Shown piece by piece: positions 2,995 to 29,367 of a DNA stretch of 64,000 nt; within the stretch, counting starts at the first letter, position 1, and every line of letters starts with the position of its first letter. The stretch covers positions 744,001-808,000 of the forward strand of contig NZ_CP045246.1 of the NCBI RefSeq assembly GCF_035189165.1. The letters are read 5' to 3'. Source of the DNA: Arthrobacter sp. JZ12. Lineage in GTDB: Bacteria > Actinomycetota > Actinomycetes > Actinomycetales > Micrococcaceae. The position numbers and the translations under genes were made by a program. The notes under the pieces were generated by a model. That model was not told the origin of the DNA and made no database searches. It worked only from the letters and a program-made list of their open reading frames with translations.

Positions 2995-3130
2995 TCAGGA
3001 GCAGTATATGTGTTTCTTACGCCCGCGAAGGAAGCTGGTTGGATAGATACAGACGAAACAAGCGAACGGACGTGCCACCATCGACCTCAACGTAGTCATC
3101 GCACTCGTCGGAGCGACGCTGCTCATAGCG

Positions 3131-4054
3131 ATGGGCGCCGCATTCCGACGCCGCTTCATCCAGTCGCCTGACTTCTGGGCCGGCCTCGAAAAGCTCACGT
3201 ACTTCGTTCTCCTCCCGTCCCTGCTGCTAACCGGTCTCGCCCGGGCGGACTTCGCGCGTCTCGAACCGGGCCCCATCGTCCTGGTCCTGTCAGCCTCAGC
3301 CCTCTTCTCCTCGCTGCTCGCCTACGCCGTACGCCGCCCTGCGGCCGGCTCCGACGGGCCGGCCTTCACCTCGGTCTTCCAGGGCACCGTCCGCTTCAAC
3401 ACCTACATCGCAGTTACGACGGCGGCAGCCCTGTTCGGGAGCGACGGAATCGCCATCGCAGCACTCGGCACCGCGGTTCTCGTTCCGCTGGTCAACCTCG
3501 CCTCGACCGTTGCGCTGGCGCACCATGGCCACCACAAACCGCGGGGAGCGGCGCTTCTTCGCACCGTGTTCTTCAATCCGTTGATCCTCGCCTGCGTGAT
3601 CGGCCTGGCCCTCAATCTGCTCGGTTCAATTCCCGCAGTAGGGGAATCACTCAAGGCACCGGTGCCGTCCGCCGTGGTACAACTAATCGCCAGCGTGCTG
3701 GGAATGCTCGGCGGTGCCGCCCTGCCTATCGGGCTGATCTGTGTGGGCGCCGGTCTTCACGGACGGGTTTTCGCCCGCGAATCACTCCGCCCGGTCGTGG
3801 CTGCGATCCTGCTCCGCTTCCTGCCAGTACCGGCCGCAACCCTGGGGCTATGTCTGGCGCTCGGCTTCAGCGGACCGGCCGCCGTCGTTTGCGTGGTTTT
3901 CCAGTCCCTGCCCACCGCCACCAGCTCCTATGTGTTCTCACGCCGGCTGGGCGGCGACGCACCCCTGATGGCGCAGATTACCGCCGCACAAACCATACTG
4001 TCGGGCGCGGTGCTTCCTGCCTGGATCCTCATAGCGACGGCGGTACTGCTCTAG
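3131..4054 (+). CDS. AEC-family (auxin efflux carrier-like) membrane transporter
   Basis: From the first ATG the protein has 307 residues and about nine hydrophobic segments, with the AEC-type stretch FWAGLEKLTYFVLLPSLLL near its N-terminus. AEC proteins are membrane carriers of organic acids, amino acids or peptides. The ATG at 3131 lies inside what should be the first helix: the frame stays open upstream to 3047 and encodes TIDLNVVIALVGATLLIAM, a typical first helix. No ATG, GTG, TTG or CTG codon occurs in that upstream stretch. The real start may be a rare codon such as ATC at 3080, or there may be a sequence error. It is divergent from the GPH symporter. Its substrate is unknown; a threonine dehydratase gene follows 78 bp downstream. 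Confidence 0.8.
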   Translation: MGAAFRRRFIQSPDFWAGLEKLTYFVLLPSLLLTGLARADFARLEPGPIVLVLSASALFSSLLAYAVRRPAAGSDGPAFTSVFQGTVRFNTYIAVTTAAALFGSDGIAIAALGTAVLVPLVNLASTVALAHHGHHKPRGAALLRTVFFNPLILACVIGLALNLLGSIPAVGESLKAPVPSAVVQLIASVLGMLGGAALPIGLICVGAGLHGRVFARESLRPVVAAILLRFLPVPAATLGLCLALGFSGPAAVVCVVFQSLPTATSSYVFSRRLGGDAPLMAQITAAQTILSGAVLPAWILIATAVLL

Positions 4055-4132
4055 AGCGGGGCTCTAGTGCCAGCCATGCGCCAGGAGTAGCTTGTGCTAC
4101 ATGCAGATTAGAGAGTCCTCCTGAGGCCGCCC

Positions 4133-5131
4133 ATGGGACCAACCGACGCCGTCGCCGAAGCCACCCTTGTTACCCTCAACGACATCGAAGCAGCTGCCGA
4201 CCGCATTGGCGATCTCGTGCTTCGAACACCGCTCGTTCAGCTTCCGCATCCACAGTCACCGGATCGGATTCTGCACTGCAAGGCCGAATGCCTACAGCCC
4301 ACCGGCGCCTTCAAGCTCCGCGGTGCCTACAACACCATCGCCCAGGTGCTGGATCAGGCCCGCGCTAACGGGATCGTTGCGCAGTCGTCGGGCAACCACG
4401 CACGGGCTGTCGCCTGGCTTGCCCGCCGGCTCAGCCTACGCGCCGTGATCGTGATGCCCGACGCCGCACCGCCCACCAAGATCGATGCCGTCCGTGAGCT
4501 CGGTGCCGACGTCGAAGTGGTTCCGTCAGCCCTCCGCGACGTCCGCGCCCACGAACTCGCAGCTGAGCACGGTTATGTGCACGTCCCGCCCTACGACGAC
4601 CCCCGCATCATCGCCGGACAGGGAACCGTCGGGCTCGAGATCGTGCAGCAGTTACCCGAGGTCAGCACTGTTCTCGTCCCCATTTCGGGTGGCGGCCTCA
4701 TCTCCGGGATTGCGACCGCGGTCAAGGCGCTGAAGCCGGAGACTCGCGTCATCGGCGTTGAACCGGAGCTCGCCGCCGACGCTGCCCAAAGCCTCCGCGA
4801 GGGCCGACGCATCAGCTGGGATCCGCAGCTGACCTACCGCACTGTGGCTGACGGACTGCGCACGCCCGCGATCGGCGTGCATCCCTGGGCGCATGTGCAG
4901 CGTTACGTCGACGACATCGTCACTGTCACCGAAGACCAGATCCTGGCCGCCATGCGGCATCTCGCCCTGGCGGGTCGGCTGGTTGCAGAGCCATCTGGAG
5001 CGGTGGCTGCCGCCGCCTGGCTGCACAACATCGCAGGTGCAGAAAACGACGGCGGCGCGGTGGCCGCCGTCGTTTCCGGTGGTTCGGTGGATCCGGCGCT
5101 GCTGGCGGCGGTGCTGCAGCCCGCCAGCTAG
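4133..5131 (+). CDS. Threonine/serine dehydratase, PLP-dependent fold II, without ACT domain
   Basis: A 332-residue enzyme of the tryptophan synthase beta superfamily. The PLP lysine is K61 in TGAFKLRGA. SSGNHARAVA follows as the substrate loop, and SGGGLISG is the phosphate-binding glycine loop. Such enzymes deaminate L-threonine or L-serine to 2-oxobutyrate or pyruvate plus ammonia. There is no C-terminal ACT regulatory domain, which argues against the isoleucine-feedback IlvA and for a catabolic TdcB-like or serine-racemase-like enzyme. It follows the AEC permease on the same strand, so the permease may carry a related amino or organic acid. Its stop overlaps that of the convergent next gene in a shared CTAG. 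Confidence 0.85.
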   Translation: MGPTDAVAEATLVTLNDIEAAADRIGDLVLRTPLVQLPHPQSPDRILHCKAECLQPTGAFKLRGAYNTIAQVLDQARANGIVAQSSGNHARAVAWLARRLSLRAVIVMPDAAPPTKIDAVRELGADVEVVPSALRDVRAHELAAEHGYVHVPPYDDPRIIAGQGTVGLEIVQQLPEVSTVLVPISGGGLISGIATAVKALKPETRVIGVEPELAADAAQSLREGRRISWDPQLTYRTVADGLRTPAIGVHPWAHVQRYVDDIVTVTEDQILAAMRHLALAGRLVAEPSGAVAAAAWLHNIAGAENDGGAVAAVVSGGSVDPALLAAVLQPAS

Positions 5132-5682
5132 AGCTGTCCCAGGAAGCGGGTGAGCACCGCCGTCCAAAGTTGTCGCGCGGCGTCGTTCTCTTCCGGCGTG
5201 GCCATGCCCCGCTGGGTGGCGACGATCGACGCTGTCCCGTCCTTCTTCGGCTCACTGGTGACCAGGATGGATGAACCGTCCGACGCCGGTGCGCGCCAGG
5301 TTTTGCGCTTGTCGGTTCCGCTGGTGCGCGGTGCGTCGGCCAGAAGGGACTGCACCTCGCTGTCCTCAGTAGCGAAGCCCACCCACCGGGCCATGAGGTC
5401 CTCGAGGCCCAGGCGGGTGGAGCGGCTGATGCTCATCTGGAAGGTGCCGTCCGAGCGCTGTCCGGGGATACGTCGTCCGATGGCATGCTCGTACGCCACC
5501 GCAATCGATTGCGACCACCAAGCGGCCGACTCCATGGTCCCCTCGAGTTCCGCGAACACCTTCGCGGCAATGTCCTTATGGCTGAGGTTCTCCGCATCAA
5601 TTCCGTTCAGAAACTGCATCCAGTCATCCCATTGACGACGGGTGGACGTTTCGATGGGCTTGATGCGCGGGTTGGCACTCAT
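5128..5682 (-). CDS. SRPBCC/AHSA1-like conserved protein
   Basis: A 184-residue soluble protein. The central region reads WWSQSIAVAYEHAIGRRIPG, followed by GQRSDGTFQMSISR. This pattern occurs in actinobacterial proteins often labelled as activator-of-Hsp90-ATPase or SRPBCC-like; I recognise the pattern but not a function. The start at 5682 is chosen because GGAAGGA lies eight bases upstream, better than the in-frame ATG at 5706. It lies 27 bp downstream of the FBP protein gene and is probably cotranscribed with it. No catalytic residue can be assigned. Confidence 0.6.
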   Translation of the reverse strand: MSANPRIKPIETSTRRQWDDWMQFLNGIDAENLSHKDIAAKVFAELEGTMESAAWWSQSIAVAYEHAIGRRIPGQRSDGTFQMSISRSTRLGLEDLMARWVGFATEDSEVQSLLADAPRTSGTDKRKTWRAPASDGSSILVTSEPKKDGTASIVATQRGMATPEENDAARQLWTAVLTRFLGQL

Positions 5683-5709
5683 GCTGACGATCCTTCCAGA
5701 CGGCACTCG

Positions 5710-6201
5710 CTATTCTGCGACCCGGCTCAGAAACTTCCCTATCCGCTCACGCAGTTCCTCAATCTGCCGCTTGACGACGACGGCGGGGTCCGGGTTGATC
5801 TCGTTGGCCGGCGGGGCTTTGCGTACGTTTGCAGAGCAGATGAAATCTGCGCAGATCAAGGTACCTACCGTATTCCCGTTGCGGCCCGGCTGGCCTGCCC
5901 GTTTCGCCGACCAGAGGAAGACGTCCTCCTTCGAGAATACGTCGCGGCACATTTCGCAGAGCACTGAACGATTCTTCTTGGCTCCGCCTTCGGGCGCGCG
6001 GAGAAGGATGCCGGTCAGACCGCCCTCAGCGGGCACCACAAGATAGCCGCGAAGGGGCATCTTTTCGTCGCGCCAACCAAGGAAATCGAGGTTGTCCCAG
6101 TCGAGGTGGTCGAAGTTCGGCGGGAGATTGAGCTTGGCGGTTTCTGAGCGGGTTGCGTTGATGAAGGATGACCGGATGTCCCGGTCGCTGATTTCTTGCA
6201 T
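5710..6201 (-). CDS. FBP-family protein with EF-G-binding treble-clef zinc finger
   Basis: A 163-residue protein. Its second half has CEMC, and about 38 residues later the CADFIC pair, together forming a four-cysteine zinc site. The surrounding text (KNRSVLCEMCRDVF, KRAGQPGRNGNTVGTLICAD) matches the C-terminal treble-clef domain known from the FusB/FBP elongation-factor-G-binding family. In FusB proteins this domain binds EF-G and rescues it from fusidic acid. In actinobacteria the role is not established. The start MQEISDRDIR at 6201 fits the conserved domain; an upstream extension to 6279 lacks support. It is transcribed towards the SRPBCC-like gene and divergently from the LacI gene at 6440. 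Confidence 0.75.
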   Translation of the reverse strand: MQEISDRDIRSSFINATRSETAKLNLPPNFDHLDWDNLDFLGWRDEKMPLRGYLVVPAEGGLTGILLRAPEGGAKKNRSVLCEMCRDVFSKEDVFLWSAKRAGQPGRNGNTVGTLICADFICSANVRKAPPANEINPDPAVVVKRQIEELRERIGKFLSRVAE

Positions 6202-6323
6202 GGGAAAGAGCCTTTGCAGGTTGGAAGCTGAGGGTGGGCAGAACAAAGCGCCCTTCAGCGAGCCGTTGCATTCTTGCAAAACTGGTGTGGCGAGGCAACG
6301 GGAAAAGTAGTTCGAGCTGGGTG

Positions 6324-6353
6324 TTGCGGATCACAAGCGCGCTGCCGTAGGCT
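6324..6353 (+). promoter_or_regulatory. Possible sigma-70-like promoter of the GH42-GH95-GH31-GH1 operon
   Basis: TTGCGG at 6324-6329 and TAGGCT at 6348-6353 are separated by 18 bp, an acceptable match to -35 and -10 boxes. The predicted start of transcription, near 6360, falls inside the CGAAGCGCTTCG palindrome, which is where a repressor operator would be expected. The -10 match is modest, so this is a proposal only. Confidence 0.35.
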
Positions 6354-6356
6354 CGT

Positions 6357-6380
6357 CGAAGCGCTTCGCTAAGCGCTTCG
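6357..6380. promoter_or_regulatory. Tandem LacI-type operators in front of the xyloglucan-type operon
   Basis: A perfect palindrome, CGAAGCGCTTCG, occupies 6357-6368. A second copy of its AAGCGCTT core with a TTCG right flank occupies 6369-6380, offset by exactly 12 bp. The same CGAA-N4-TTCG pattern recurs inside the GH42 gene at 7516-7527. The operators lie about 60 bp before the start of the LacI-family gene, consistent with autorepression and control of the operon. Binding is inferred. Confidence 0.7.
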
Positions 6381-6439
6381 CTAATTGGTCACCTCTCAAT
6401 CATTCTTCTCTCAGCACAGCTTTGGACACAGGAGTCTGC

Positions 6440-7471
6440 ATGGCTAACATTCACGACGTCGCCCGCGTCGCTGGTGTTTCCATCAGCACCGTGTCCTACG
6501 CACTGAGCGGTAAGCGGTCGGTGAGCGAGGATGCGCGCCGCCGGATCACGGCTGCGGTCCAGGAGCTCGGCTACCTCCCGAATGCTGCTGGAAGAATGCT
6601 CGCGGGAGCCCGAACCCGGATCCTCGCGCTGAGCGCTCCGCTCCGGTCGGACACCTACGCACCCGCCCACATGGCGTTCGTACTCGCGGTCGCAACGGCT
6701 GCCCGCCGGTACGACTACGACATCCTCCTGCTCACCGAAGACGAGGCAACAAACGGTCTGCGCCGCGTTACGTCCAGTCGCCTGGTCGACGCCGTCATCC
6801 TCCTTGACGTCTCGATCGACGACGAGCGTATTGGCTTGGTCCGCGACCTCTCGGTTCCGTCGGTGGTCGTCGGCGTACCGAAGGATGCCACCGGACTCAT
6901 CTGCGTTGACCTGGACTTCGCTGCGGCTGCCCGACTGACCATAGACAGGCTTGCCGAGGCGGGTCACCGCTCGATAGCACTGCTCGGCCACCCCGAAGCT
7001 GTGTACCAGCGAGGATCCAACTTTCCCCATCGCTTCAGAAATGCCTTCCTGGATTACGCGGCGGAGCAAAAGATATCCGCGAAATTTGTCATGCCGGGCA
7101 CCAGTGACACCGATGTTCGTCAGGCCGTCGACCAGATGCTCGACCCTGGCGACTCAGTTACCGGCGTGGTGATGCACTGTGAGGAGTCCATCCAGTCCCG
7201 CGCGCTTCAGGTTATTGCTGAAAGCGGACGCAGCGTTCCCGGGGACCTGTCCGTGATCTCCGCTTGCACCAGCTTTGATACGTCCCATTTCCACCCGCCG
7301 CTCGACGTAATCCCGCTCGTCGCTGCGGACTCCTGCGATCGGGCGGTTGCCCTGATCATGCAAGCGCTCGACGGCGCGGCCGAGCCGCATGTCGAGCTGG
7401 TGGCACCGCGGTACGAATCCCGCGGTTCCCTGGGAAAGCCGGTACAGCCAGCCGTCCCCGAACTCACCTAA
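6440..7471 (+). CDS. LacI-family transcriptional regulator of the glycosidase operon
   Basis: A 343-residue protein. Its first 25 residues form the LacI helix-turn-helix (HDVARVAGVSISTVSYALSG), followed by the hinge helix LPNAAGRMLAGART and a periplasmic-binding-protein-like effector domain. GGAG lies five bases before the chosen ATG. It is the first gene of the locus, 33 bp before the GH42 gene, with palindromic operators just upstream and a third operator just downstream. It most likely represses the operon until an imported oligosaccharide or its breakdown product binds. The effector identity is not readable from sequence. Confidence 0.9.
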   Translation: MANIHDVARVAGVSISTVSYALSGKRSVSEDARRRITAAVQELGYLPNAAGRMLAGARTRILALSAPLRSDTYAPAHMAFVLAVATAARRYDYDILLLTEDEATNGLRRVTSSRLVDAVILLDVSIDDERIGLVRDLSVPSVVVGVPKDATGLICVDLDFAAAARLTIDRLAEAGHRSIALLGHPEAVYQRGSNFPHRFRNAFLDYAAEQKISAKFVMPGTSDTDVRQAVDQMLDPGDSVTGVVMHCEESIQSRALQVIAESGRSVPGDLSVISACTSFDTSHFHPPLDVIPLVAADSCDRAVALIMQALDGAAEPHVELVAPRYESRGSLGKPVQPAVPELT

Positions 7472-7504
7472 ATCCTTCCTTACGTCCTGAAAGAGGCCCA
7501 TTCC

Positions 7505-9556
7505 ATGCCCGTTAGCGAAACGTTTCGACACAGCGCGTCCGCGGAGGGACCAAACAGTGAACAACTGGTATTCGGAGGCGACTACAACCCGGAGCAATGG
7601 CCGGAAGAGACCTGGCACGAAGACGTACGCCTCATGCGCGAAGCACACGTCAACCGAGTTACCGTCGGTGTATTTTCCTGGTCCTCCATCGAGCCCCGTG
7701 AGGGTGAGTACCGGTTCGGGTGGCTGGACCGGGTCATGGATCTCATGGCCGAGAACGGCATCGGCGTCGTCCTCGCGACGCCTACGGCATCACCCCCACC
7801 ATGGTTCACGCTTGCCCACCCCGAAGCCCTTCCCATGACTGCCGATGGAGTCCGGTTGGTCCACGGCAGCAGGGACACCTACAACCCTGCCGCCCCGGCC
7901 TACCGCGCCGCCGCGCGCCGCGTGGCCGCTGCGCTTGCCGAACGGTACGCCTTCCACCCGGCACTTCGGATGTGGCACCTCCACAACGAGTACGGCACCG
8001 TCTCCTACGGCCCAGAAACCAACACAGCGTTCCGCGGCTGGCTACAGGAGAAGTACGGCAGCCTGCAGGCCCTGAATTCCACCTGGAACACGGCCTTCTG
8101 GTCACAGGGGTACGGGGAATGGGAGGAAATCTTCGCGCCGCAGGCCACCCAGTACCTGCCCAATCCCTCTCTGTTGCTCGATTTCAAGCGTTTCTCAGCG
8201 GACGTTCTGCGCGACTGCCTACGCGAGCAGGTGGACGTGGTTCGGGCCGTCCGCCCGGACGTTCCGGTCACCACCAACTTCATGCTGCCCGCCTGGAACC
8301 ACTACGACCAGTGGGACATGGCCGCGGAAATAGACGAGGTCTCGGTGGACCATTATCCGGATACCCCCGGCATTGAGGGTGACGTTCAGGTTGCGTTCGG
8401 CAGCGACCTTGCCCGCTCCTTCAACGGCGGTCGGCCCTGGGTCCTCATGGAGCAGGCCACCACCATGGTCTACGACTACGCACAGGGCCGCATCCTCGCC
8501 CGTGATCCCGGCAAGCTCCTATTCAACACTCTTCAGTACCTTGCCCGGGGCTCCACAGGTTCTCTCTTCTTCCAGTGGCGCTCACCGCGTGCAGGCGCAG
8601 AGTTCTTCCACTCGCCGATGGTGCCGCACGTGGGTGAAAACTCCCGGACCTTCCGGGAGATCGTTGAGCTCGGAACCACCCTGAGCCGCCTTCCCGAACT
8701 GGCGCAGCAGCCGGCAAACGGCAACCGGGTGAACCGGAACCGCGTGGGCATCGTCTGGGATGCCTCCGCGTGGTGGTCGGCCGAGACACGCGCATTGCCC
8801 TCGAACGACGTCGCGTTCCTGCCGGCCGTGAAGTCGGTTCACCGCGCGCTGTGGTTCCTTGGCATCAACGCCGACTTCGTACAGCTGGACCAGGACCTCA
8901 GCGGTTACAGCCTGGTTCTGGTGCCGAGCAAGCTGGCCGCTTCGGACGCTGAGGCCGACAACCTGAGGCGGTTTGTGGCGGACGGCGGACACACCGCCGT
9001 CTGGTACTTCTCAGGTAGCACAGACGAGAACCTCAACGTCCGCCTGGGCGGATTCACCGGAGCGTTTGCCGACCTCCTCGGCATCCGCGTCGAGGAACAC
9101 TTCCCCCAGCCCGCAGGTGACATCCTGAAACTCAGTGACGGCTCCACAGCCGACGGCTGGGCGGAGTCTGTGGAACTTCATGGCGCCGTTAGCGTTGCCG
9201 ACTTCACGGAGTTTCCGCTCGCCGGACGTCCTGCCGTCACACGCAACGAATTTGGCAGCGGCACGGCGCATTACTTCGCAACACGGTTCGGTGAGGACAG
9301 CCTGAAAGACCACCTCGAGCGCATTCTCGACGCCGCCGGAATTTCGAAGGACCACCCGGCAGCAGGCCGTGGGGTCGAAGCAGTCCGCCGTTATGCCGGG
9401 GATCGCAGCTACCTCTTTCTGCTCAACCACACCGGGGAAGCCGTTGACGTGGATGTCCGCGGACAAGATCTCCTTACCGATACGGCGGTCTATGGCTCCA
9501 CCGTCCTGGCTGCCGGCGCCGCCCTGATAGTGCGCGAACCACACGAAACTCCCTGA
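7505..9556 (+). CDS. Beta-galactosidase, glycoside hydrolase family 42
   Basis: A 683-residue protein of normal GH42 length. It opens with the hallmark FGGDYNPEQWPEE. The predicted acid/base is E162 in HLHNEYG and the nucleophile is E316 in LMEQATT. A (beta/alpha)8 barrel of about 390 residues is followed by the trimerisation domain and a small C-terminal beta domain. There is no signal peptide, so it acts in the cytoplasm on imported sugar, releasing terminal beta-D-galactose. GAGG stands before the ATG. A perfect 12-bp operator-like palindrome overlaps codons 4-8. In this operon the likely substrate is the galactose on xylose of xyloglucan oligosaccharides, exposed after defucosylation. Confidence 0.92.
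   Translation: MPVSETFRHSASAEGPNSEQLVFGGDYNPEQWPEETWHEDVRLMREAHVNRVTVGVFSWSSIEPREGEYRFGWLDRVMDLMAENGIGVVLATPTASPPPWFTLAHPEALPMTADGVRLVHGSRDTYNPAAPAYRAAARRVAAALAERYAFHPALRMWHLHNEYGTVSYGPETNTAFRGWLQEKYGSLQALNSTWNTAFWSQGYGEWEEIFAPQATQYLPNPSLLLDFKRFSADVLRDCLREQVDVVRAVRPDVPVTTNFMLPAWNHYDQWDMAAEIDEVSVDHYPDTPGIEGDVQVAFGSDLARSFNGGRPWVLMEQATTMVYDYAQGRILARDPGKLLFNTLQYLARGSTGSLFFQWRSPRAGAEFFHSPMVPHVGENSRTFREIVELGTTLSRLPELAQQPANGNRVNRNRVGIVWDASAWWSAETRALPSNDVAFLPAVKSVHRALWFLGINADFVQLDQDLSGYSLVLVPSKLAASDAEADNLRRFVADGGHTAVWYFSGSTDENLNVRLGGFTGAFADLLGIRVEEHFPQPAGDILKLSDGSTADGWAESVELHGAVSVADFTEFPLAGRPAVTRNEFGSGTAHYFATRFGEDSLKDHLERILDAAGISKDHPAAGRGVEAVRRYAGDRSYLFLLNHTGEAVDVDVRGQDLLTDTAVYGSTVLAAGAALIVREPHETP
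7516..7527. promoter_or_regulatory. Operator-like palindrome inside the first codons of the GH42 gene
   Basis: CGAAACGTTTCG is a perfect 12-bp palindrome spanning codons 4-8 of the beta-galactosidase gene. It shares the CGAA-N4-TTCG pattern of the site at 6357-6368, differing only at two symmetric inner positions. Such a site could act as a transcription roadblock or as a looping partner for the upstream operators 1.15 kb away. The encoded residues (SETF) lie in an unconserved leader before the GH42 fold, so the sequence is free to be kept for binding. Confidence 0.6.
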
Positions 9557-9622
9557 ATACCTCCCTCTGCAACCGGTCTATGACCCGCACAACCGTGCAA
9601 ACAAACCCACGAAAGGATGCCA

Positions 9623-10924
9623 ATGATGGCACTCACCTCAAAGCGGTCTGGAGCTCTCTCAGCCCTCGCGCTCACCACAGTCTCCGCACTCCTGCTCACC
9701 GGCTGTGCGTCAGGCGGAGACGCTCCGTCCGCCGAGGCCGGGCCAGTCACCCTCGAGTTCTGGGGCTGGGCCCCCGGCCTGGAGACCGCCGTCGAACTTT
9801 GGAACGAGGAAAACCCCAACACCCAGATCGAGTTCTTCCGGATGACAGGCGATGACGGAGCAAAGATCCCGGCAGCGATCGACGCCGGCACCGCACCGGA
9901 CGTGGTCCAGATGTCCGTTCACTCGATCCCTGGTCACATCATCAACAACCGGTTGACCGACATCAGCGAGTACACCGAGGGCCTGGAGGAACAGTTCACC
10001 GCCAGCTCCTGGAAAGGCGTCTCCTACAACGACGGCGTCTACGCCATCCCGCAGGACTCCGGCCCCACCGGTCTCATGTACCGCAAGGACCTGTTCGAGC
10101 AGCACGGCGTCGAAGTTCCCACCACCTGGGACGAGTACCTCGATGCAGCCCGGGCACTCAAGGAAGCGGACCCGGAGCTTCACATTGCACAGTTCTCCCC
10201 GAACGAGACCGGACTCTGGCTTGAGACGGTCTGGCAGAACGAAGGAACCTGGTACGGCATCGACGGCGACGCCTGGACCGTGGGCATCGACAATGAGGCC
10301 AGCCAGGAAGTAGCCGAAGTGTGGCAGACGCTCCTTGATGAGGACCTCGTCAAGGTCGTGGACATGTGGACCCCCGAATACTGGGCCGAGGTCAACGCCG
10401 GTACGATCGCCACGATCAATTACGCCGCATGGTTCCCCGGGCTGCTTGAGGAAAGCGCCGGCGACCTTGCCGGAAAGTGGGCCGTTGCGCCGTCACCGCG
10501 GTACGACGGACTCGACACAGCTGGGGAAACCGGCGGCAGCGTCGACGTCATCCCCGAAGGAACCGAGCACGTGGAGCAGGCCGTTGAGTTCACCACCTGG
10601 CTGAACTCTTCACCGGAGGCACTCGAGATCCTGATCACCGAGGGCGGCCTGTTCCCCTCCGCCCTCACCGGCCTCGAAAGCGAGTCCCTGCTCCAGCCCG
10701 AGGAGTACTTCGGCGGCCAGGTCATCAATGAGGTCTTCGCGGGCGAAGCCACCAAGGTGCCGGACACCTGGGTGGAAGGGCCCAGCTTCGACCTTGCGCA
10801 GGACCAGCTGAAGGACGCATTCGCGCAGGTCGCCAACGGCAAGTTGACTTTCGCCGAGGCACTGACCCAGGTTCAGGAGTCAACCGTGCAGGACCTGAAA
10901 GACATGGGGCTGAACGTCAAATGA
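9623..10924 (+). CDS. ABC sugar importer, substrate-binding lipoprotein (SBP family 1)
   Basis: A protein of about 433 residues with a lipoprotein signal ending in LLLTGC, so the mature protein is anchored by lipid outside the membrane. The body (VTLEFWGWAPGLETAVELWN and later the MYRKDLFEQHGVEVPTTWDE region) matches family-1 oligosaccharide-binding proteins. Three in-frame ATG codons lie at 9617, 9623 and 9626. AAAGGA overlaps the first, so 9623 or 9626 is the better start. It is followed by two permeases with 4-bp overlaps. Given the enzymes downstream, the expected ligand is a xyloglucan-derived oligosaccharide. Confidence 0.9.
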   Translation: MMALTSKRSGALSALALTTVSALLLTGCASGGDAPSAEAGPVTLEFWGWAPGLETAVELWNEENPNTQIEFFRMTGDDGAKIPAAIDAGTAPDVVQMSVHSIPGHIINNRLTDISEYTEGLEEQFTASSWKGVSYNDGVYAIPQDSGPTGLMYRKDLFEQHGVEVPTTWDEYLDAARALKEADPELHIAQFSPNETGLWLETVWQNEGTWYGIDGDAWTVGIDNEASQEVAEVWQTLLDEDLVKVVDMWTPEYWAEVNAGTIATINYAAWFPGLLEESAGDLAGKWAVAPSPRYDGLDTAGETGGSVDVIPEGTEHVEQAVEFTTWLNSSPEALEILITEGGLFPSALTGLESESLLQPEEYFGGQVINEVFAGEATKVPDTWVEGPSFDLAQDQLKDAFAQVANGKLTFAEALTQVQESTVQDLKDMGLNVK

Positions 10925-11874
10925 GTACCGCAGCCGCGACACGCGCCGCGGCTGCCCGTACTCCCCGCCGCCGCCGTCGAGGCGGCGGCGGGGAACGGGT
11001 AGCACCGTATGTCTTCCTCGCACCGTTCATCTTCCTGTTCCTCGTGTTCCTGGTGCTGCCGATCATCGTGGCCCTCTACACGAGTTTCTTCCAGACGCAG
11101 CGCAGCGGCCTGGGCTTCGGCGGCGGTGACGGACAGAAGTTCGTCTGGTTCGACAACTACGCGCTCGCGTTCTCGAATCCCGGCTTCATCGAGAGCTTCG
11201 GCCGGGTGCTGCTCTTCGGAGCGGTCCAGGTTCCGGTCATGCTCGCCTTTTCCCTGGTCCTTGCGCTGCTGTTCGATTCCGCCGTCGTTCGGTGGAAGCG
11301 CTTCTTCCAACTGAGTGTGTTCCTGCCCTACGCGGTTCCCTCCGTGGTCGCCGCGCTCATCTGGGGTTTCCTCTACCAGCCGCGGGTCAGCCCGATCGTC
11401 GAGGGTCTTACCAGCATCGGTGTCCCCGTGAACTTCCTGGCACCCGGTACCGTGCTCTGGTCGATCGCGAACGTCGCTGTCTGGTCTGTCGTCGGCGTCA
11501 ACATGATCATTCTGTTCTCCTCACTGCAAACGGTGCCCCGAGAGATGTATGAGGCTGCCCGGATCGACGGCGCGGGCGAACTTCGTATGGCGCTGCAGAT
11601 CAAGCTGCCCATGATCCTGCCCGCCCTGATCCTCACCATGCTCTTCTCGGTCATCGGCACCCTGCAGCTCTTTAACGAACCGATGACCATGCGCTCGGTT
11701 ACCTCGAACATCTCGGGCGATTACACCCCCAACATGGCTGTTTTCTCGGCCACCACCCTCGGTGGTGACATCAATCTCGGCTCCGCGATGGCAATCGTCA
11801 TCGGCCTGGTGACGTTTGTGCTGTCTGTCATCGTCTCAGTGCTCTCCAACCGGAAGCGAGGTAGCGCGAAGTGA
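10921..11874 (+). CDS. ABC sugar importer permease, MalF/UgpA type
   Basis: A 317-residue membrane protein with six predicted helices. The permease EAA loop EAARIDGAGELRMALQIKLP docks with the ATPase. Its N-terminus is rich in Ala and Arg, which is normal for a cytoplasmic leader. Its ATG overlaps the stop of the binding protein in ATGA, indicating translational coupling. With the next gene it forms the heterodimeric membrane channel of the importer. No ATPase gene is present in the operon, so a shared MsiK-type ATPase encoded elsewhere probably energises it. Confidence 0.9.
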   Translation: MSTAAATRAAAARTPRRRRRGGGGERVAPYVFLAPFIFLFLVFLVLPIIVALYTSFFQTQRSGLGFGGGDGQKFVWFDNYALAFSNPGFIESFGRVLLFGAVQVPVMLAFSLVLALLFDSAVVRWKRFFQLSVFLPYAVPSVVAALIWGFLYQPRVSPIVEGLTSIGVPVNFLAPGTVLWSIANVAVWSVVGVNMIILFSSLQTVPREMYEAARIDGAGELRMALQIKLPMILPALILTMLFSVIGTLQLFNEPMTMRSVTSNISGDYTPNMAVFSATTLGGDINLGSAMAIVIGLVTFVLSVIVSVLSNRKRGSAK

Positions 11875-12800
11875 CACAGGTACCTGTCCTTGCCCCGCCG
11901 GTTTCACCCGAACCGGCATCCAAGCCCCGGAACCGCACACGGGTCCACGCCGAAGGCGAACGGCCCAGCCCTGCTGCCCGTGTCGCTGCGTGGATCTTCA
12001 TGGGAGCCACGGCCCTGTACTTCCTCGTGCCCGTCTACTGGCTGATCGTCGCGGCGACGAAGAGTACGTCCGACCTCTTCTCCACGCCGGGCTTCTGGTT
12101 CGCGGAATTCAACCTGTTCACCAACCTCGCTGCCCTCACGGAGTACGACAACGGAATCTTCTGGCGGTGGATGGGCAACTCGCTGATCTACTCCGGGGTC
12201 GGCTCACTGCTGATGACATTCATCAGCCTCATTTCCGGTTACGCGCTGGCGATGTACCGTTTCCGTGGGCGCAGCGTTGTGCTGGCTGCGGTGTTGGGCA
12301 GCATGCTCATTCCGCAGACCGTCCTCGCCCAGCCCACGTACCTGCTGCTGGTGGAAATCGGGCTCAACAACACCATCTGGGGCGTGCTGATTCCCAGCCT
12401 GGCCTATCCGTTCGGCGTCCTCCTCGCCTTTGTCTATGCACAGGCGTCCGTCCCGCAGGAACTGCTTGAGGCAGCCAGACTCGACGGCGCAAGTGAATGG
12501 CGCGCGTTCTTCTCCATCGCCCTCAAACTGCTCAGCCCCGGCGGCGTGACAATCATGCTGTTCGCCTTCATCGGCAGCTGGAACAACTTCATGCTTCCGC
12601 TCCTGGTTATCAGCGATGCACGGCTCATGCCGGTCACGGTGGGCCTCAGCGGATGGAGCCAGGCGGCCATTACGATTCCGGGGCTGCAGACCCTGGTGGT
12701 CATCGGCGCGTTGGTCTCCATCATTCCGATCGTCGTCGTGTTCGTGTCCCTCCAGCGCTACTGGCGCTCAGGTTTGGCGGCAGGCGGTGTGCGTTTCTAA
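11871..12800 (+). CDS. ABC sugar importer permease, MalG/UgpE type
   Basis: A 309-residue protein with six predicted helices and the EAA loop EAARLDGASEWRAFFSIALK. It starts at GTG, overlapping the previous stop in GTGA. The periplasmic loop after helix 1 and the C-terminal SLQRYWRSGLAAGGVRF are typical of MalG-like subunits. It pairs with the MalF-type permease. Its TAA stop directly abuts the ATG of the GH95 gene, so transport and hydrolysis genes are made from one message. Confidence 0.9.
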   Translation: MTQVPVLAPPVSPEPASKPRNRTRVHAEGERPSPAARVAAWIFMGATALYFLVPVYWLIVAATKSTSDLFSTPGFWFAEFNLFTNLAALTEYDNGIFWRWMGNSLIYSGVGSLLMTFISLISGYALAMYRFRGRSVVLAAVLGSMLIPQTVLAQPTYLLLVEIGLNNTIWGVLIPSLAYPFGVLLAFVYAQASVPQELLEAARLDGASEWRAFFSIALKLLSPGGVTIMLFAFIGSWNNFMLPLLVISDARLMPVTVGLSGWSQAAITIPGLQTLVVIGALVSIIPIVVVFVSLQRYWRSGLAAGGVRF

Positions 12801-15227
12801 ATGCCGGTGAACGACCTTCTCTACCGCCGTCCTGCGAAGAACTGGCTCGACGGTCTGCCGTTGGGCAACGGCCGGCTCGGCGCAATGGTGCTGGCCGGCG
12901 ATTCTTCAGTACGGCTGCAGCTCAACGACAGCACGGCCTGGTCCGGCAGTCCTGCCAGCGAGCACCGCCGCGGTCGGGTGGATGCCGACACCGCCGCTGC
13001 TGCCCTGGCAGACGCACGGACGGCAATCGCCGAGAACCGGCCTGTCGATGCGGAGCGCACCCTCGAGCAGTTGCAGTCTGCCTACTCCCAGTCCTACTTG
13101 CCCTTTGCCGACGTCGTGCTCACAGTGTCCGACGACGGCGGACACTGCGGGTGGAAGCTGCAGGACCGCGGACTGTCCCTCGCGGAAGCAACGCACTGCT
13201 TCACCCTTGATGGGCCGGTTTTCCTCACTCAGGAGACCTTTATCAGTCCGGTGGACGGCGTACTTGTCCACCGGCTCCAGTCGACGGCACCCGTGGACGT
13301 GACGATCGCTCTGTCCACTCCGTTGATGGAACTTGGCCGCGCAAGCCGGCCCGACGGCGTCGTACTGAAACTGCGGCTGCCCGCCGACGTGGCTCCCGGC
13401 CACGAACCAAACGAGCCCGCGCTGCGGTGGGAGGCCGACGGCGTGACGCCGCTTGAGGGCGCACTGTGCCTGGCAGCCACACATGATGGCCGGCATGACG
13501 ACCGGCACGACGGCCGGCACGACGGCGGTGCTTCCCTGTTCACAGGGGTCACCGACCTGCTGCTGGTGATCGCGACGGAGACCACGTTCAGCGGGATCGG
13601 GCGGGAGCCGGAGGGCAGCGCAGCAGACTGCGCGGAGGAAGTTCAAGAACGGGTGGAAGCCGCGGTCGAAAAGGGTTGGGATCCGCTGCACCGGGACCAC
13701 GTCGCCGCTCACCGGGACCTGTTCGACCGTGCCTCGCTTACCTTCGAAACCGGCCCGCAGTCCCGGCCGGAGCGCGAGGGGATTTGCACAGATCGACGGC
13801 TGCGCGAAGCGAACGCGCACCCCGCAGGCATCCTGACAGCGGACCCGGAGCTCGTCGCCCTGCTGTTCAACTATGGGCGCTATCTGCTGATCTGCTCATC
13901 ACGCCCGGGAACGTTGCCCGCCACGCTTCAGGGGATTTGGAACGAGGATATGCGCCCGCCGTGGTCCTCCAACTACACGCTGAACATCAACGCCGAGATG
14001 AACTACTGGGGCGCGGAGGCGGCGGCGCTGGCCGAATGCTCTTACCCGCTGTTCGACCTAGCTGAGGCGCTGGCCGAACGAGGACGAAGCACGGCAAGCA
14101 CGCTCTATGGAGCACGCGGTTGGGTCGCCCATCACAACTCGGATGCCTGGGGCTACAGCTCACCCACCGCGGGCCATGCCAGTTGGTCCCAGTGGCCCAT
14201 GGCCGGACCGTGGCTCGTCCGCCACCTCGACGAGAAGCGGCGCTTCGGCTCTGCCTCACCTGCCGATCTCGAACGGCTCTGGGCGCTCGCTGTGGGTGCC
14301 GCAGAATTCGTCTGCGACTGGCTGATTGACGACGGCGGCACCCACCTGCAGACGCGCCCCTCGACCTCACCCGAGAACTGCTACCTCAGCAGCCAGGGCA
14401 GGGCGGCGGTTGCAACGTCGACGGCGATGGACCGTGCGCTGATTCGCGAGCTGTTTCAGGTGGTGCTGGAGTTGGCACCGCTCGTCGGCCAAATCGGTCA
14501 TCCGGTGCTGGACGAGGTCCGTGCCGCACTGCCGCGAATCGCGTCGCCGCAGGTTGGCTCGGACGGCCGCATCCTCGAATGGGGCGCCGGCGACGAGGAG
14601 GAAGACCCGCAGCACCGCCATGTCTCCCACCTGTTCTTTGCCTACCCTGGAAACGGCCCGACGCAGGAACTCACCGGAGCATTGGACAAGTCCCTGAACG
14701 TCCGCGGTGACAATTCGACCGGCTGGTCACTGATCTGGAAGATCTGCCTCCGGTCACGGCTGAGACAGGGCGAAAAGGTCGCGGACCTGCTCCGACTGCT
14801 GTTCCGGCCAGCGGATGCGACGTCCGGTCAGCACGCCGGAGGACTGTACAACAACTTCTTCGCTGCACATCCGCCCTTTCAGATCGACGGCAACCTCGGG
14901 TTCATAGGAGCACTGGCCGAAGCGCTGGTGCAGAGCCATGCGGACACGATCCGGCTTCTGCCAGCACTTCCTGGGGAATTGGGAAGCGGCCGTGTCCGCG
15001 GCCTGGTAGCCCGGCCGGGAATCGCCGTCGACCTTGTCTGGCAGGACGGACAGCTAACGGAAGCGATTCTGACGCCACTCCGTCCGGAGGCGGCAGGGGA
15101 GCGGACCGTCGCCGTTGCCGACTGGGCCGGAGCCGTGACGCTGGCCTTCGGGCAGCGCACAGTGCTTCGCCGAGAGCCGCAATCCGGCACCCCCGTTTTT
15201 TCAACAACACAGCAGGAGAACACGTGA
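12801..15227 (+). CDS. Glycoside hydrolase family 95, probable alpha-1,2-L-fucosidase
   Basis: An 808-residue protein of usual family length. Diagnostic parts are WLDGLPLGNGRLGAMV near the N-terminus, the YTLNINAEMNYW region, STSPENCYL, and PFQIDGNLGF near the end. By comparison with the characterised Bifidobacterium AfcA, the key residues correspond to N395, N397, E525 and D696. The family removes alpha-1,2-linked L-fucose by inversion; a few members are alpha-L-galactosidases. There is no signal peptide, so it acts inside the cell. In a xyloglucan setting it would take fucose off the galactose side chain before the GH42 enzyme works. A 12-bp tandem repeat at 13482-13529 adds a histidine-rich loop in the N-terminal domain. 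Confidence 0.88.
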   Translation: MPVNDLLYRRPAKNWLDGLPLGNGRLGAMVLAGDSSVRLQLNDSTAWSGSPASEHRRGRVDADTAAAALADARTAIAENRPVDAERTLEQLQSAYSQSYLPFADVVLTVSDDGGHCGWKLQDRGLSLAEATHCFTLDGPVFLTQETFISPVDGVLVHRLQSTAPVDVTIALSTPLMELGRASRPDGVVLKLRLPADVAPGHEPNEPALRWEADGVTPLEGALCLAATHDGRHDDRHDGRHDGGASLFTGVTDLLLVIATETTFSGIGREPEGSAADCAEEVQERVEAAVEKGWDPLHRDHVAAHRDLFDRASLTFETGPQSRPEREGICTDRRLREANAHPAGILTADPELVALLFNYGRYLLICSSRPGTLPATLQGIWNEDMRPPWSSNYTLNINAEMNYWGAEAAALAECSYPLFDLAEALAERGRSTASTLYGARGWVAHHNSDAWGYSSPTAGHASWSQWPMAGPWLVRHLDEKRRFGSASPADLERLWALAVGAAEFVCDWLIDDGGTHLQTRPSTSPENCYLSSQGRAAVATSTAMDRALIRELFQVVLELAPLVGQIGHPVLDEVRAALPRIASPQVGSDGRILEWGAGDEEEDPQHRHVSHLFFAYPGNGPTQELTGALDKSLNVRGDNSTGWSLIWKICLRSRLRQGEKVADLLRLLFRPADATSGQHAGGLYNNFFAAHPPFQIDGNLGFIGALAEALVQSHADTIRLLPALPGELGSGRVRGLVARPGIAVDLVWQDGQLTEAILTPLRPEAAGERTVAVADWAGAVTLAFGQRTVLRREPQSGTPVFSTTQQENT
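13482..13529 (+). repeat. Four 12-bp tandem units within the GH95 gene
   Basis: Units at 13482, 13494, 13506 and 13518 follow the pattern CAYGAYGRCCGG and encode HDGR, HDDR, HDGR and HDGG. The period is a multiple of three, so the frame is kept. The insert lies between the conserved N-terminal beta-sandwich and the catalytic barrel and is unlikely to be structural. Confidence 0.85.
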
Positions 15228-17563
15228 AATTCACCGACGGTTTCTGGGAGACCCGTCCCGGCGTCGACGCGCTCTACGCTCAGGAGGCTTACGACATCGA
15301 GGCACGGGACGGACGCCTCACCATCTCAGCACCTACCCGCGTGATCACCCGGCGCGGCGATACGCTCAACCGGGCCATGCTCACCGTGACGGTATCAAGT
15401 CCGTTGGAGGGCGTCGTCGGAGTGAAGATCGAGCATCACCGGGGCGCTTCCGGTTCCGGCGGGTTCGACCTGGTCGGCCGGCAGTCCGGATGCGGAACCG
15501 CGAGTGTCGACTCGATCGGGGGAGTGCTTGACGCCGGATCGATACAGGCCCGCATCGCGGACGGCGATCCGTGGAGCCTGACCTTCGAGGCAGACGGACG
15601 GACGCTCACCAGGAGCGGACGGAAGTCCATCGGCTACGTAACGCTCGCCGCAGACGCGTCCGTTTCAGTGGAACCGGTAGGCCGAACGGGGGTGAGCGCT
15701 ACCGGGCGGCCGCCGTCGTCGTCGTACCTTCATGCGAAGCTGTCCCTGGGTGTCGGCGAGTTGGTCTACGGTTTGGGCGAGCGGTTCGGGCCACTCATCA
15801 AGAACGGACAGACGGTTGACGTCTGGAATGCCGACGGTGGAACCGCGAGCGAGCAGTCCTACAAGAGCATCCCGTTCTATCTGACCAACCGCGGGTATGG
15901 GGTGTTCGTGAACCACCCCGAGCATGTCTCGTTCGAGGTCGGGTCGGAGTCCGTCGAAGAGGTTCAGTTCTCCGTGGCGGGGGAAACCCTTGAGTACTTC
16001 GTGATCTACGGGCCCACTATGAGGGACATCCTCCGCCGGTACACCGAGCTGACCGGCCGCCCGGCCAGTGTGCCCGCCTGGTCCTACGGCCTGTGGCTCT
16101 CTACCAGCTTTACCACTGACTACGATGAGGCCACCGTCAACCACTTCGTCGACGGGATGGCCGAGCGAGGGGTTCCGCTGAGCGTCTTCCACTTCGACTG
16201 TTTTTGGATGCGGGAGTTCAACTGGACTGACTTCGAATGGGACGAACGGGTCTTTCCCGAGCCGGAGCTCATGCTCAAGCGGCTGCATGAGAAGGAACTG
16301 CGCATCAGCGCCTGGATCAATCCCTACATCGCGCAGCGATCGGCCCTGTTCGACGAGGCATCGGAAGCCGGCTACCTGGTTCGCAAGCCCGACGGCGACG
16401 TCTGGCAGTGGGACATGTGGCAGGCAGGCATGGGTCTGGTTGATTTCACCAATCCCGACGCCACGTCCTGGTATCAGGACAAACTGCGGCACCTCATCGG
16501 ACAGGGTGTGGACTCCATCAAGACGGACTTCGGTGAGCGGATTCCCACCGACGTGATGTGGCACGACGGGTCATCACCGGCCGCCATGCACAACCTCTAC
16601 ACCCACCTGTACAACAGGGCCGTGTTCGAGGTGCTGGAAGAGCAACACGGCAAAGGGAACGCCGTACTGTTCGCCCGGTCAGCCACCGCGGGCGGGCAAC
16701 AGATGCCCGTGCACTGGGGAGGCGACAACTCGTCGTCGTTCGAATCGATGGCCGAAACGCTCCGCGGGGGCCTGTCCCTCGCGCTCAGCGGATTCGGGTT
16801 CTGGAGTCACGACATCGGTGGGTTCGAGGGTAATCCGGACCCTGCGGTCTTCAAACGTTGGGTGGCCTTCGGACTCCTTTCCAGCCATTCACGCCTTCAC
16901 GGGTCCACCAGCTACCGCGTGCCGTGGGCCTTCGACACCGGAGAGGAACCGGCAGGGCTGAGCGCCGTCGACATCACGCGACAGTTTGCCAACCTGAAGA
17001 TGGAGCTCATGCCCTACTTCTATGCGGTGGGTGAGCAGGCGAACCTTCAAGGTCTTCCGTTCATGCGGCCACTCCAACTGGAGTTTTCCGGCGATCCTGC
17101 GGTGGACTACCTCGACCGCCAGTACATGATTGGCGACAGCCTGCTGGTTGCTCCGGTCTTCAGCGCCGACGGAGAGGTTGATTACTACCTGCCGGCCGGA
17201 ACCTGGACAAACTACCTCACGGGGGAAGTCGCAGCCGGCGGGGGGTGGCGGCATGAGCGCCACGACTTCAACAGCATCCCGCTGTGGGTCCGGGAAGGAA
17301 GCGTGCTCGTCACAGGCCCGCGGCGCGACCGGCCCGACTACGACTACGCCGCGGACCCGCTCGTCACCGTGTACCCCGGTGCTTCCCGGGGCGATTCAGT
17401 ACGCGTACCCAACCCGCTCGGTGAGAACCTTCTTTTCTCCATCGAGCGGACCGACAACAGCATCACCATCACCAGCAGCAGTGGGACACCGTTCCGGGCG
17501 CGCCTCGCTGCAGACGGTGCAACCATCCACTCAACCTCAGGAAAGGCAGTGCTTAACCCATGA
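15224..17563 (+). CDS. yicI: Alpha-xylosidase, glycoside hydrolase family 31, YicI type
   Basis: A 779-residue protein that parallels E. coli YicI along most of its length, including [33 protein letters not shown] and [16 protein letters not shown]. The nucleophile is D435 in KTDFGE and the acid/base is D501 in HWGGD. The aromatic subsite residues FDCFW, which select xylose over glucose in YicI, are present. The enzyme removes alpha-1,6-linked xylose from the non-reducing end of xyloglucan oligosaccharides (isoprimeverose-type units). It is cytoplasmic and its GTG overlaps the GH95 stop in GTGA. This gene is the strongest evidence that the operon targets xyloglucan rather than milk-type oligosaccharides. 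Confidence 0.93.
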
Positions 17564-19032
17564 CGCAGCACCTCGAAGAAGCCGGCGCTCAAACCGCTGG
17601 AGATCCTGACTACCGCGACGAAGGCCTGGAGTTCCCGCCAGGTTTTGTCTTCGGTTCGGCCACCGCCTCCTACCAGATCGAAGGTGCTGTCGAGGCGGAC
17701 GGACGCGGCCCCTCCATCTGGGACACCTTCAGCCACACGGCGGGCAAAGTGTGGAACGGTGACACCGGGGACATAGCCTGCGACCACTACCACCGGGTGG
17801 AGTCCGACCTCGACCTGATGAAGCAGCTCGGCCTGGAGTCGTACCGCTTCTCCATTGCCTGGCCTCGCATCCAGCCCACCGGCCGGGGGCCGGCCAACGA
17901 GGCGGGCCTGGCCTTCTACGAGCGGCTGGTCGACGGTCTGCTGGCGCGCAACATCAAGCCGATTGTCACTCTCTACCACTGGGACCTGCCGCAGGCACTG
18001 GAGGACGGCGGCGGCTGGACCAACCGGGAGACTGCGCTCGCCTTCGGTGACTACGCGCGAATTGTCGGAGAACGGCTCGGTGACAGGGTGGCCGTCTGGA
18101 CCACACTGAATGAGCCTTGGTGCAGCGCCTACCTTGGTTACGGTTCGGGAGCACATGCACCCGGCCGCACCGAGCCGGCTGCGGCCCTCGCCGCTGTGCA
18201 CCATCTGAACCTGGCGCATGGGCTTGCCGTCTCCGCGCTGCGCGAAGTGGTAACCAATGATCCTGACTTTGCGATCACCCTGAACCTGCATGTTTTCCGC
18301 CCCGACGGTGACACCGGTGCGGAAGCGGTTCGTCGGGTGGACGGGTTGGCCAACCGTTTGTTCCTGGATCCGCTGCTGAACGGAACCTACCCCGAGGACG
18401 TCCTGGCCGATACAGCCGGGATCACTGACTGGTCGTTCATCCAGCAGGGGGACCTGGGCATCATCAGGCAACCGCTGGACCTGCTGGGAGTGAACTACTA
18501 CTCCACAACACGGGTGCGGATGTGGGACGGAAACGGTGAGAAGCAGAACGCAGACGGGCACAAGCCCTCAGCGGGCACGGCTTGGCCCGGCGCCGACGAC
18601 GTCGAGTTCCTTCCCCAGCCCGGCCCGTACACCGAGATGGGCTGGAACATCGACCCGTCAGGACTCGAGGACCTGCTCGTGTCGCTGCATGAACGCTGGC
18701 CGAGCGTGCCGTTGATGATCACCGAGAACGGCGCGGCGTTCTCGGACGTCGTGGAGACGGACGCCGATGGTCAGCGCCGTGTGCACGATTTCGACCGCAT
18801 CGACTACCTGCGTCGCCACTTCACCGCCGCCCACCGCGCCATGAGCCGCGGCGTCGATCTGCGCGGCTACCAGGTGTGGTCGCTGATGGACAACTTCGAG
18901 TGGGGCTACGGCTATTCCAAGCGGTTCGGCATTGTGCACGTCGACTACGAGACGCTTGAGCGCACCCTAAAGGACAGCGCCCGCTGGTACGCCCGCCTGA
19001 TTCGGGAACGCCGCATCCCCGGGCTGGAGTAA
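17560..19032 (+). CDS. Beta-glucosidase, glycoside hydrolase family 1
   Basis: A 490-residue protein of normal GH1 length. It has [15 protein letters not shown] at the N-terminus, the acid/base E185 in TLNEPW and the nucleophile E389 in [16 protein letters not shown] and the [13 protein letters not shown] region near the C-terminus complete the family pattern. It would split the beta-1,4-glucose backbone left after removal of xylose. It is cytoplasmic. Its ATG overlaps the stop of the alpha-xylosidase gene in ATGA, and it ends the operon just before a strong hairpin. Confidence 0.93.
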
Positions 19033-28491: not shown

Positions 28492-29367
28492 TTACAGGGC
28501 AGCCGAAGGAGCGCCCTCATGCGCAATGACGCGCTGCCGCTGCTCGCCGAGGCCGTCGATGCCGATCGTGACTGTGTCGCCCGGCGCAAGGAACGGAAAC
28601 TTCCCGGACACAGCTACACCTTGTGGCGTTCCGGTGTTCACCACGTCACCCGGATCCAATGCCATGTACTGGGACAGGTCCCGGATGATCTCGGCAACGC
28701 TGAACACCATGTCAGCGGTCGTAGAGTCCTGGCGCCGTTCGCCGTTCACAGCTGAATACAGGTGCAGTGCTTGCGGATCCGGTATGTCCTCCGCCGGAAC
28801 CAGTGCAGGACCCATGGGATTGAAGGTCGGGGCACACTTGCCCTTCGACCATTGGCCGCCTGAGTGGTGCATCTGGAAATCGCGCTCGGACACGTCGTTG
28901 CTGATGGTGAAGCCGGCGATGCACTGCAGCGCCTCGTCAGCGCTGGAAAGGTAGGAAGCCCGCTTGCCGATAACCACCGCCAGCTCCACCTCCCAGTCCA
29001 CCTTCTGCGCTCCGGGCGGGATGACGACGTCGTCGTTCGGTCCGATGACAGTGTTGGGATGTTTGAAGAAGATGATGGGCGCCTTTGGCGGCTCGTCACC
29101 GGTCTCCGCTGCATGAGCGGCGTAATTCTGACCCACACAGACGACGGCGCCGATGCCGTTCAGCGGGGCACCCACCCGCAGCGCGGATGCGTTATCCAGT
29201 ACCGGCAGGTTGCCGGACGCCAGGGCAGCACGGACCTTTACGATGCCCCCAGAGCCCAGAAACGCACCCGTGATGTCGTCGGTGATGCCGCGCAGGTCGT
29301 AGTATTCCGCACCCTCGCGAACCACTGGCGTTTCCCTCCCGGGTTCGCCCAACCGCATCAGTTCCAT
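28492..29367 (-). CDS. Fumarylacetoacetate hydrolase (FAH) family protein
   Basis: A 291-residue protein with the FAH catalytic domain from about residue 70: VCVGQNYAAHAAETG, IFFKHPNTVIGPND, DWEVELAVVIGK (metal-binding acids), FTISNDVSERDFQ and VNTGTPQGV. The overall text is close to the group that includes 2,4-diketo-3-deoxy-L-fuconate hydrolase, the last step of the non-phosphorylating L-fucose and L-rhamnose pathways, but other 2-keto acid hydrolases share it. AAGGGAG precedes the ATG. It converges on the RelA-like gene with 10 bp between stops. Exact substrate uncertain. Confidence 0.85.
   Translation of the reverse strand: MELMRLGEPGRETPVVREGAEYYDLRGITDDITGAFLGSGGIVKVRAALASGNLPVLDNASALRVGAPLNGIGAVVCVGQNYAAHAAETGDEPPKAPIIFFKHPNTVIGPNDDVVIPPGAQKVDWEVELAVVIGKRASYLSSADEALQCIAGFTISNDVSERDFQMHHSGGQWSKGKCAPTFNPMGPALVPAEDIPDPQALHLYSAVNGERRQDSTTADMVFSVAEIIRDLSQYMALDPGDVVNTGTPQGVAVSGKFPFLAPGDTVTIGIDGLGEQRQRVIAHEGAPSAAL

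Follow-up and report, generated by a model that had tools for sequence, protein, structure and literature searches.

Fucosylated xyloglucan is a common component of primary walls in dicots, and the uptake of xyloglucan oligosaccharides by ATP-binding cassette (ABC) importers, followed by breakdown in the cytoplasm, is already known in Gram-positive bacteria. In Ruminiclostridium cellulolyticum, the imported oligosaccharides are broken down by glycoside hydrolases of families GH42 and GH31 and a beta-glucosidase, and a figure legend (Fig. 12) of the same paper, of which excerpts are used here, describes related clusters drawn with alpha-fucosidase genes (PMC4780118). In Anaerocellum bescii, the locus Athe_2052-2057 combines an ABC importer with a GH31 gene, and its solute-binding protein (SBP) binds XXXG (PMC12710961, in excerpt). 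As far as the excerpts of the two studies go, both used tamarind material and left the import of fucosylated fragments open (PMC4780118, PMC12710961). Here, we focus on an operon at 6440-19032 of a 64-kb stretch of DNA (the window) from Arthrobacter sp. JZ12, corresponding to positions 744001-808000 of contig C1 of a 3.3-Mb, single-contig genome (the home genome, G000). By its importer, GH31, GH42 and GH1 genes, the operon is predicted to belong with the Gram-positive ABC-type loci for xyloglucan oligosaccharides. Its probable role is the use of xyloglucan oligosaccharides, fucosylated ones included, under repression by LacI.

The operon consists of eight collinear genes on the forward strand, and the open reading frame (ORF) list and Pfam agree on the order given in a preliminary description of this DNA. 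The first gene encodes a LacI-family repressor (6440..7471; Pfam LacI, 64 bits, and Peripla_BP_3, 74 bits) with an ATG start at 6440 and an alternative TTG at 6422. It is followed by a GH42 beta-galactosidase (7505..9556; GH42, GH42M and GH42C domains, best score 432 bits), the solute-binding lipoprotein of the importer (9617..10924; SBP_bac_1, 101 bits), ABC permeases 1 and 2 (10921..11874 and 11871..12800; BPD_transp_1, 48 and 45 bits), a GH95 enzyme, predicted to be an alpha-1,2-L-fucosidase (12801..15227; GH95 catalytic, N- and C-terminal domains, 439 bits for the catalytic domain), a predicted GH31 alpha-xylosidase of the YicI type (15224..17563; barrel domain, 308 bits) and a GH1 beta-glucosidase (17560..19032; 529 bits). 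The 4-bp overlaps earlier placed at nearly every step occur at four of the seven junctions (SBP-permease 1, permease 1-permease 2, GH95-GH31 and GH31-GH1); permease 2 and GH95 abut, and gaps of 33 and 60 bp separate LacI from GH42 and GH42 from the SBP. All four enzymes are predicted to be cytoplasmic. Export was judged by a hydropathy scan rather than by a signal-peptide program, and the scan bears out the claim that the enzymes lack signal peptides: none has a hydrophobic segment at its N-terminus (maximum 15-residue hydropathy of 0.27-0.91 in the first 60 residues). The SBP begins with such a segment (hydropathy 2.08), followed by the lipobox LLTGC.

The operon resembles Ccel_2451-2458 of R. 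cellulolyticum in having an ABC importer with no ATPase gene of its own nearby and cytoplasmic GH31, GH42 and beta-glucosidase. The R. cellulolyticum locus, in the excerpts, differs in using GH3 rather than GH1, a two-component regulator rather than LacI and two divergent clusters rather than one operon; it is served by cellulosomal endoglucanases and is described there without a fucosidase, whereas the window has GH95 (PMC4780118). The SBP of A. bescii is a 551-residue Cluster G protein, whereas the window SBP has 435 residues and its nearest solved relatives are GL-BP 2z8d and 7vfq; in the excerpted A. bescii account, GH42 is encoded elsewhere and a putative fucosidase lies not far from the locus, whereas both are part of the operon here (PMC12710961). 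The xyloglucan utilization locus of Xanthomonas shares GH31, GH95, a beta-galactosidase and the same stepwise removal, but, in the available part of its description, the galactosidase is a GH35 rather than a GH42, the transporters are TonB-dependent, and a GH74 and an acetylesterase are in the locus (PMC8245568). Unlike the xyloglucan loci of Bacteroidetes, the window has no SusC/SusD pair among the 20 ORFs scanned with Pfam.

Gene content, families, catalytic residues, a common motif and an importer-GH95 association were computed; from these we infer the substrates, the order of action, repression and the inducer. A secreted endoglucanase, the cell's own or that of another organism, would release oligosaccharides such as XXFG. 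The lipoprotein would capture them and the two permeases, presumably powered by an ATPase encoded elsewhere, would bring them intact into the cytoplasm, where GH95 would first remove the alpha-1,2-linked fucose and GH42 would then take the beta-1,2-linked galactose. GH31 would remove the exposed alpha-1,6-linked xylose at the non-reducing end and GH1 the glucose thus uncovered, the two acting in alternation. LacI would occupy the TCGAARCGYTTCGA palindromes, those ahead of lacI and at the start of the GH42 gene, until a breakdown product releases it.

The enzyme families are consistent with this scheme. GH31 scores 1149 bits with NF007940, the YicI alpha-xylosidase model (cut-off 606), versus 266 and 252 bits with two alpha-glucosidase models, and 858-861 bits with the YicI structures. 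The alignment, with residues numbered as in the displayed chains, shows conservation of YicI D416, D482 and C307-F308, whose functional roles in YicI we assume. With a score far above a curated cut-off and these residues kept, the earlier assignment to the YicI-type alpha-xylosidases stands, the activity being a prediction. In GH42, the NEYG and MEQ motifs, which are presumably catalytic, align with those of solved GH42 enzymes. GH1 scores 588 bits with TIGR03356 (cut-off 478.5), and its nearest solved structure is 1gnx. The GH95 protein has three GH95 domains, and the catalytic Asn-x-Asn and Asp are conserved in its alignment with Xanthomonas XacAfc95 (7kmq), in which two Asn and an Asp are named catalytic in the excerpted report (PMC8245568). 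It is therefore predicted to be an alpha-1,2-L-fucosidase, of a kind whose preference for fucose or L-galactose is not readable from the -1 subsite.

A search with the window SBP in 396 genomes of the order gave 206 at E<=1e-40. Eighteen regions were fetched, 11 as the best by SBP score among the matches listed and seven because they lie near a GH31, none being chosen for GH95; together with the window and an earlier locus, L174, they gave 20 SBPs for a tree. In this tree, a clade of nine (support 100/99) contains the window SBP, paired with that of genome G448. In the fetched stretches, GH95 directly follows the permeases in eight of the nine clade members, compared with none of the 11 outside the clade; since one genus supplies four members and another two, fewer than eight of the cases are independent. 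The ninth member (L193) has a GH1-like gene and a GH31 in place of GH95. In G448, the SBP-permease-permease-GH95 unit adjoins GH42, GH31 and GH1, the same set as in the window, and its permeases are 71% and 76% identical to permeases 1 and 2.

Other clade members place the importer in informative company. In L197 and L199, genes for an FAH-family hydrolase and an enolase-superfamily protein follow in the same operon, joined by 4-bp overlaps, and an aldo-keto reductase gene lies beyond them. The best solved relative of the L197 enolase-superfamily protein is L-fuconate dehydratase (653 bits), and the L199 protein is 84% identical to it. L194 has a ROK regulator after GH95 and a GH2 beta-galactosidase upstream. 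Enzymes of the L-fuconate dehydratase-type pathway may also accept L-galactose. By this gene company, the importer and GH95 appear tied to L-fucose or to L-galactose. An AXE1-type esterase is encoded next to the importer in each of the six loci L194-L199. In the window itself, an FAH-family-like protein is encoded on the reverse strand at 28492-29367; it is 48-51% identical to the FAH proteins of L197 and L199, in what is a broad family.

The LacI, GH31 and GH1 genes have close kin in another gene arrangement. A YicI-like GH31 (E<=1e-100) is found in 151 of the 396 genomes, and 18 GH31 regions, mostly those closest to the window GH31, were fetched from outside the home genome. In 14 of them the importer is of a type labelled SBPcan, often in the order LacI-SBP-permease-permease-GH31 and sometimes with GH1 added. 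The LacI, GH31 and GH1 of the window are up to 66, 75 and 70% identical to those of such ordinary operons, but its permeases only 25-34%. Plain Micrococcales operons of this kind (e.g. L165-L170) thus share similar LacI, GH31 and, where present, GH1 proteins, as well as the operator motif in most cases, and differ in having another importer, no GH95 and mostly no GH42. The window operon looks like an ordinary Micrococcales GH31 operon that carries a different importer, plus GH42 and GH95. GH95 is not a general component of GH31 loci, being present within the stretch in one of the 18 fetched regions. The operon is not unique to the home genome either: Cryobacterium (L035), G448 (L192) and G570 (L179) carry GH95, GH42, GH31 and GH1 together with ABC genes, and such recurrence argues against a chance assembly.

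Among 80 retained loci of the 91 encoding a relative, the closest relatives of the window enzyme are in the Arthrobacter records L033 (72% identity) and L034 (70%) and in Cryobacterium lactosi (L035, 54%). L034, a 5-kb fragment, contains GH95-GH31-GH1 at 70, 89 and 91% identity to the window genes. L033 occupies the same chromosomal site as the window operon (the flank 3071-5595 aligns at 73%) and has GH42-GH95-GH1 at 5169-13893 under a perfect operator; tblastn over its 20-kb stretch gave no match for LacI, the importer or GH31. It looks as if the operon had been remodelled at one chromosomal site. At E<=0.001, 26 of the 245 genomes in the family have a GH95 (18 above the cut-off); none of the 14 other listed genomes of the genus does, and the home genome has a single copy.

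A palindrome, TCGAARCGYTTCGA, is found before lacI and at the start of the GH42 gene. A palindrome scan upstream of lacI gave the predicted LacI operator O1, TCGAAGCGCTTCGC (6356..6369), which is overlapped by a second, imperfect copy at 6368-6381; a whole-genome 13-mer scan gave the predicted operator O2, GCGAAACGTTTCGA (7515..7528), inside the first GH42 codons. The window LacI is 65-66% identical to the LacI of two GH31 operons of the same genus, and several ordinary GH31 operons have similar sites upstream of LacI or between LacI and SBP. When the longer loci are counted, with short search snippets left aside, TCGAARCGYTTCGA with at most one mismatch occurs in 20 of 30 GH31 loci, as against 2 of 111 loci without GH31 (2 of 40 in the subset with GC>0.6). 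Both of these (L033 and L127) are of the xyloglucan type; L127 overlaps L175 and shares its sites. As a control, 56 shuffled half-site palindromes averaged 0.02 in the GH31 loci (maximum 1), compared with 9 and 4 for the two real forms. In G448, sites precede both the SBP-GH95 unit and GH42-GH31.

In the home genome, the perfect 13-mer core is confined to the two GH31 loci, where it has three distinct places (0.34 expected by composition): one precedes lacI, one is at the GH42 start and one is at C1:3094727. The last site belongs to a second GH31 locus (C1:3092-3112 kb), which has a GH3, an ABC importer, a LacI (38% identity), a GH31 (57%) and a GH42 (42%) as well as a second importer and an AXE1-type gene, and which lies amid pectin genes. 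The site is near the divergent starts of GH3 and SBP; the longest GH3 frame would cover it, but the GH3 domain begins well inside that frame. Two one-mismatch sites stand just before the second GH31. Since the two loci share the motif, the window operon is probably one half of a two-locus regulon and not the whole system. The wider island (L163-L164, C1:3086-3116 kb) includes a pectate lyase, a pectinesterase with a GDSL domain, a rhamnogalacturonan lyase and the same operator motif.

Gene company, the common operator and the GH31 subfamily together give good support to a logic of import and cytoplasmic trimming. Several findings weigh against the full reading of a LacI-controlled operon that takes fucosylated oligosaccharides. 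First, the operator: O1 itself helped to define the motif; 10 of the 30 GH31 loci have no site with one mismatch or fewer, nor do the six importer-GH95 loci that have no GH31 (L194-L199); and one-mismatch strand hits in the home genome number 30, as against 36 in a reversed control. Only perfect sites are therefore informative, and a wider claim at one mismatch was dropped. Second, the importer: Cryobacterium (L035) runs GH95, GH42, GH31 and GH1 with an SBPcan-type importer, and G570 (L179) and G020 (L127/L175) run the same set with an SBPb-type importer, so that GH95 does not need an importer of the window type. Fucosylated fragments may enter by the other importers too, or GH95 may act on little of their cargo. 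Third, the enzymes: GH42 is only 29% identical to a GH42 near a GH95 in Ruminiclostridium cellobioparum, and its beta-1,2-galactosidase activity is therefore not given by close homology; GH95 as a family includes alpha-L-galactosidase, and its -1 subsite is not diagnostic of specificity, according to the part of the XacAfc95 study at hand (PMC8245568).

The genome itself adds to these points. L-fucose isomerase (FucI, PF02952) has no match in the home genome, and a FucD query gave partial matches of 34-36% at two places there and no orthologue. PF13378 has seven places in the genome, of which the two with the highest scores were matched to solved structures and four others judged by eye; the top two were rejected as L-fuconate dehydratases, one fitting L-talarate/galactarate dehydratase and the other a putative racemase and related enzymes. 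Released fucose thus has no known fate in the home genome by the FucI and FucD searches. A xylose isomerase is present, which speaks for the xyloglucan reading. Near the pectin island, a probable rhamnose operon (L214:5628-10304; isomerase, aldolase/dehydrogenase and kinase, identified from first residues only) was weighed as a possible side route for fucose. No GH5 or GH12 was found in the genome, in a search that left aside GH9, GH16, GH44 and GH74. The pathway earlier called complete is complete in its set of exo-glycosidases and falls short in these other respects.

The substrate could differ from fucosylated xyloglucan in more than one way. The xyloglucan may be galactosylated and not fucosylated, GH95 acting on another bond such as that of alpha-L-galactose, as does BACOVA_03438, with fucose playing no part. 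GH95 is polyspecific in the excerpted literature (PMC8245568), known fucose catabolism was not found by the FucI, PF13378 and FucD searches, and 17 of the 18 fetched GH31 regions have no GH95 in the stretch, although one of them (G020) has one about 10 kb away. We regard this alternative as unlikely, for the importer clade accompanies GH95 in eight of nine members, twice with an L-fuconate dehydratase-type gene. L-galactose can take the place of fucose on xyloglucan, so this alternative would change the sugar more than the system. The target may also be another fucosylated beta-galactoside, such as the side chains of arabinogalactan-proteins or H-antigen-type glycans, GH31 and GH1 being general helpers. 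The nearest solved SBP, 2z8d, binds galacto-N-biose/lacto-N-biose, GH42 and GH95 fit such glycans as well, and the six importer-GH95 loci L194-L199, one of which (L194) has a GH2 beta-galactosidase, have no GH31 in the fetched stretch; the match of GH31 to the YicI model, the operator common to GH31 loci and the conservation of LacI, GH31 and GH1 with plain GH31 operons make this equally improbable. That GH31 is an alpha-glucosidase in an unrelated mixed glycoside operon is very improbable: GH31 is a polyspecific family and alpha-glucosidases are among the structure matches, but the protein scores 1149 bits with NF007940 and just 266 and 252 with the alpha-glucosidase models, and it retains C307-F308 of YicI.

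For the xyloglucan operon with fucosylated substrates, the preliminary description is well supported as to substrate and import, and less so as to one operon being the whole system. It had also called the locus little described. Gram-positive ABC loci that combine GH31, GH42 and beta-glucosidase have been described in the excerpts cited, and some of them include fucosidase genes (PMC4780118); for actinobacteria, the statement agrees with a literature search of titles and abstract openings of open-licence papers, which found no such operon. A literature search on the motif letters brought up no paper. To the known loci the window adds one LacI operon, in a member of the Micrococcaceae, a GH95-linked importer clade and a candidate operator. 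A more speculative proposal, which we rate at somewhat less than an even chance, joins these: the SBP-permease-permease clade would be a dedicated importer of alpha-L-fucosylated plant oligosaccharides in a GH95-linked cassette, which here replaced the ordinary importer of the Micrococcales xyloglucan operon and came under its operator; the host would make no use of the fucose, stripping it just to gain access to the underlying sugars, and TCGAARCGYTTCGA would define an order-wide regulon. The operon raises the question of what is gained from a fucosidase in a genome with no known fucose route. It also makes the import of fucosylated fragments testable: it supplies a binding protein and an operator as candidates, and importers that occur with GH95 can be compared with those that do not.

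GH95 is found in other surroundings as well. In another Micrococcaceae genus (L122:4867-10851 and L126:2820-10840), AXE1 is its neighbour and a class II aldolase/short-chain dehydrogenase fusion lies close by, which suggests a different fucose or rhamnose context; the FGGY kinase was scanned in L122 only. At L010 (G144:C1:2415770-2417041), a GH95 match has one in-frame stop codon and is perhaps a decayed gene.

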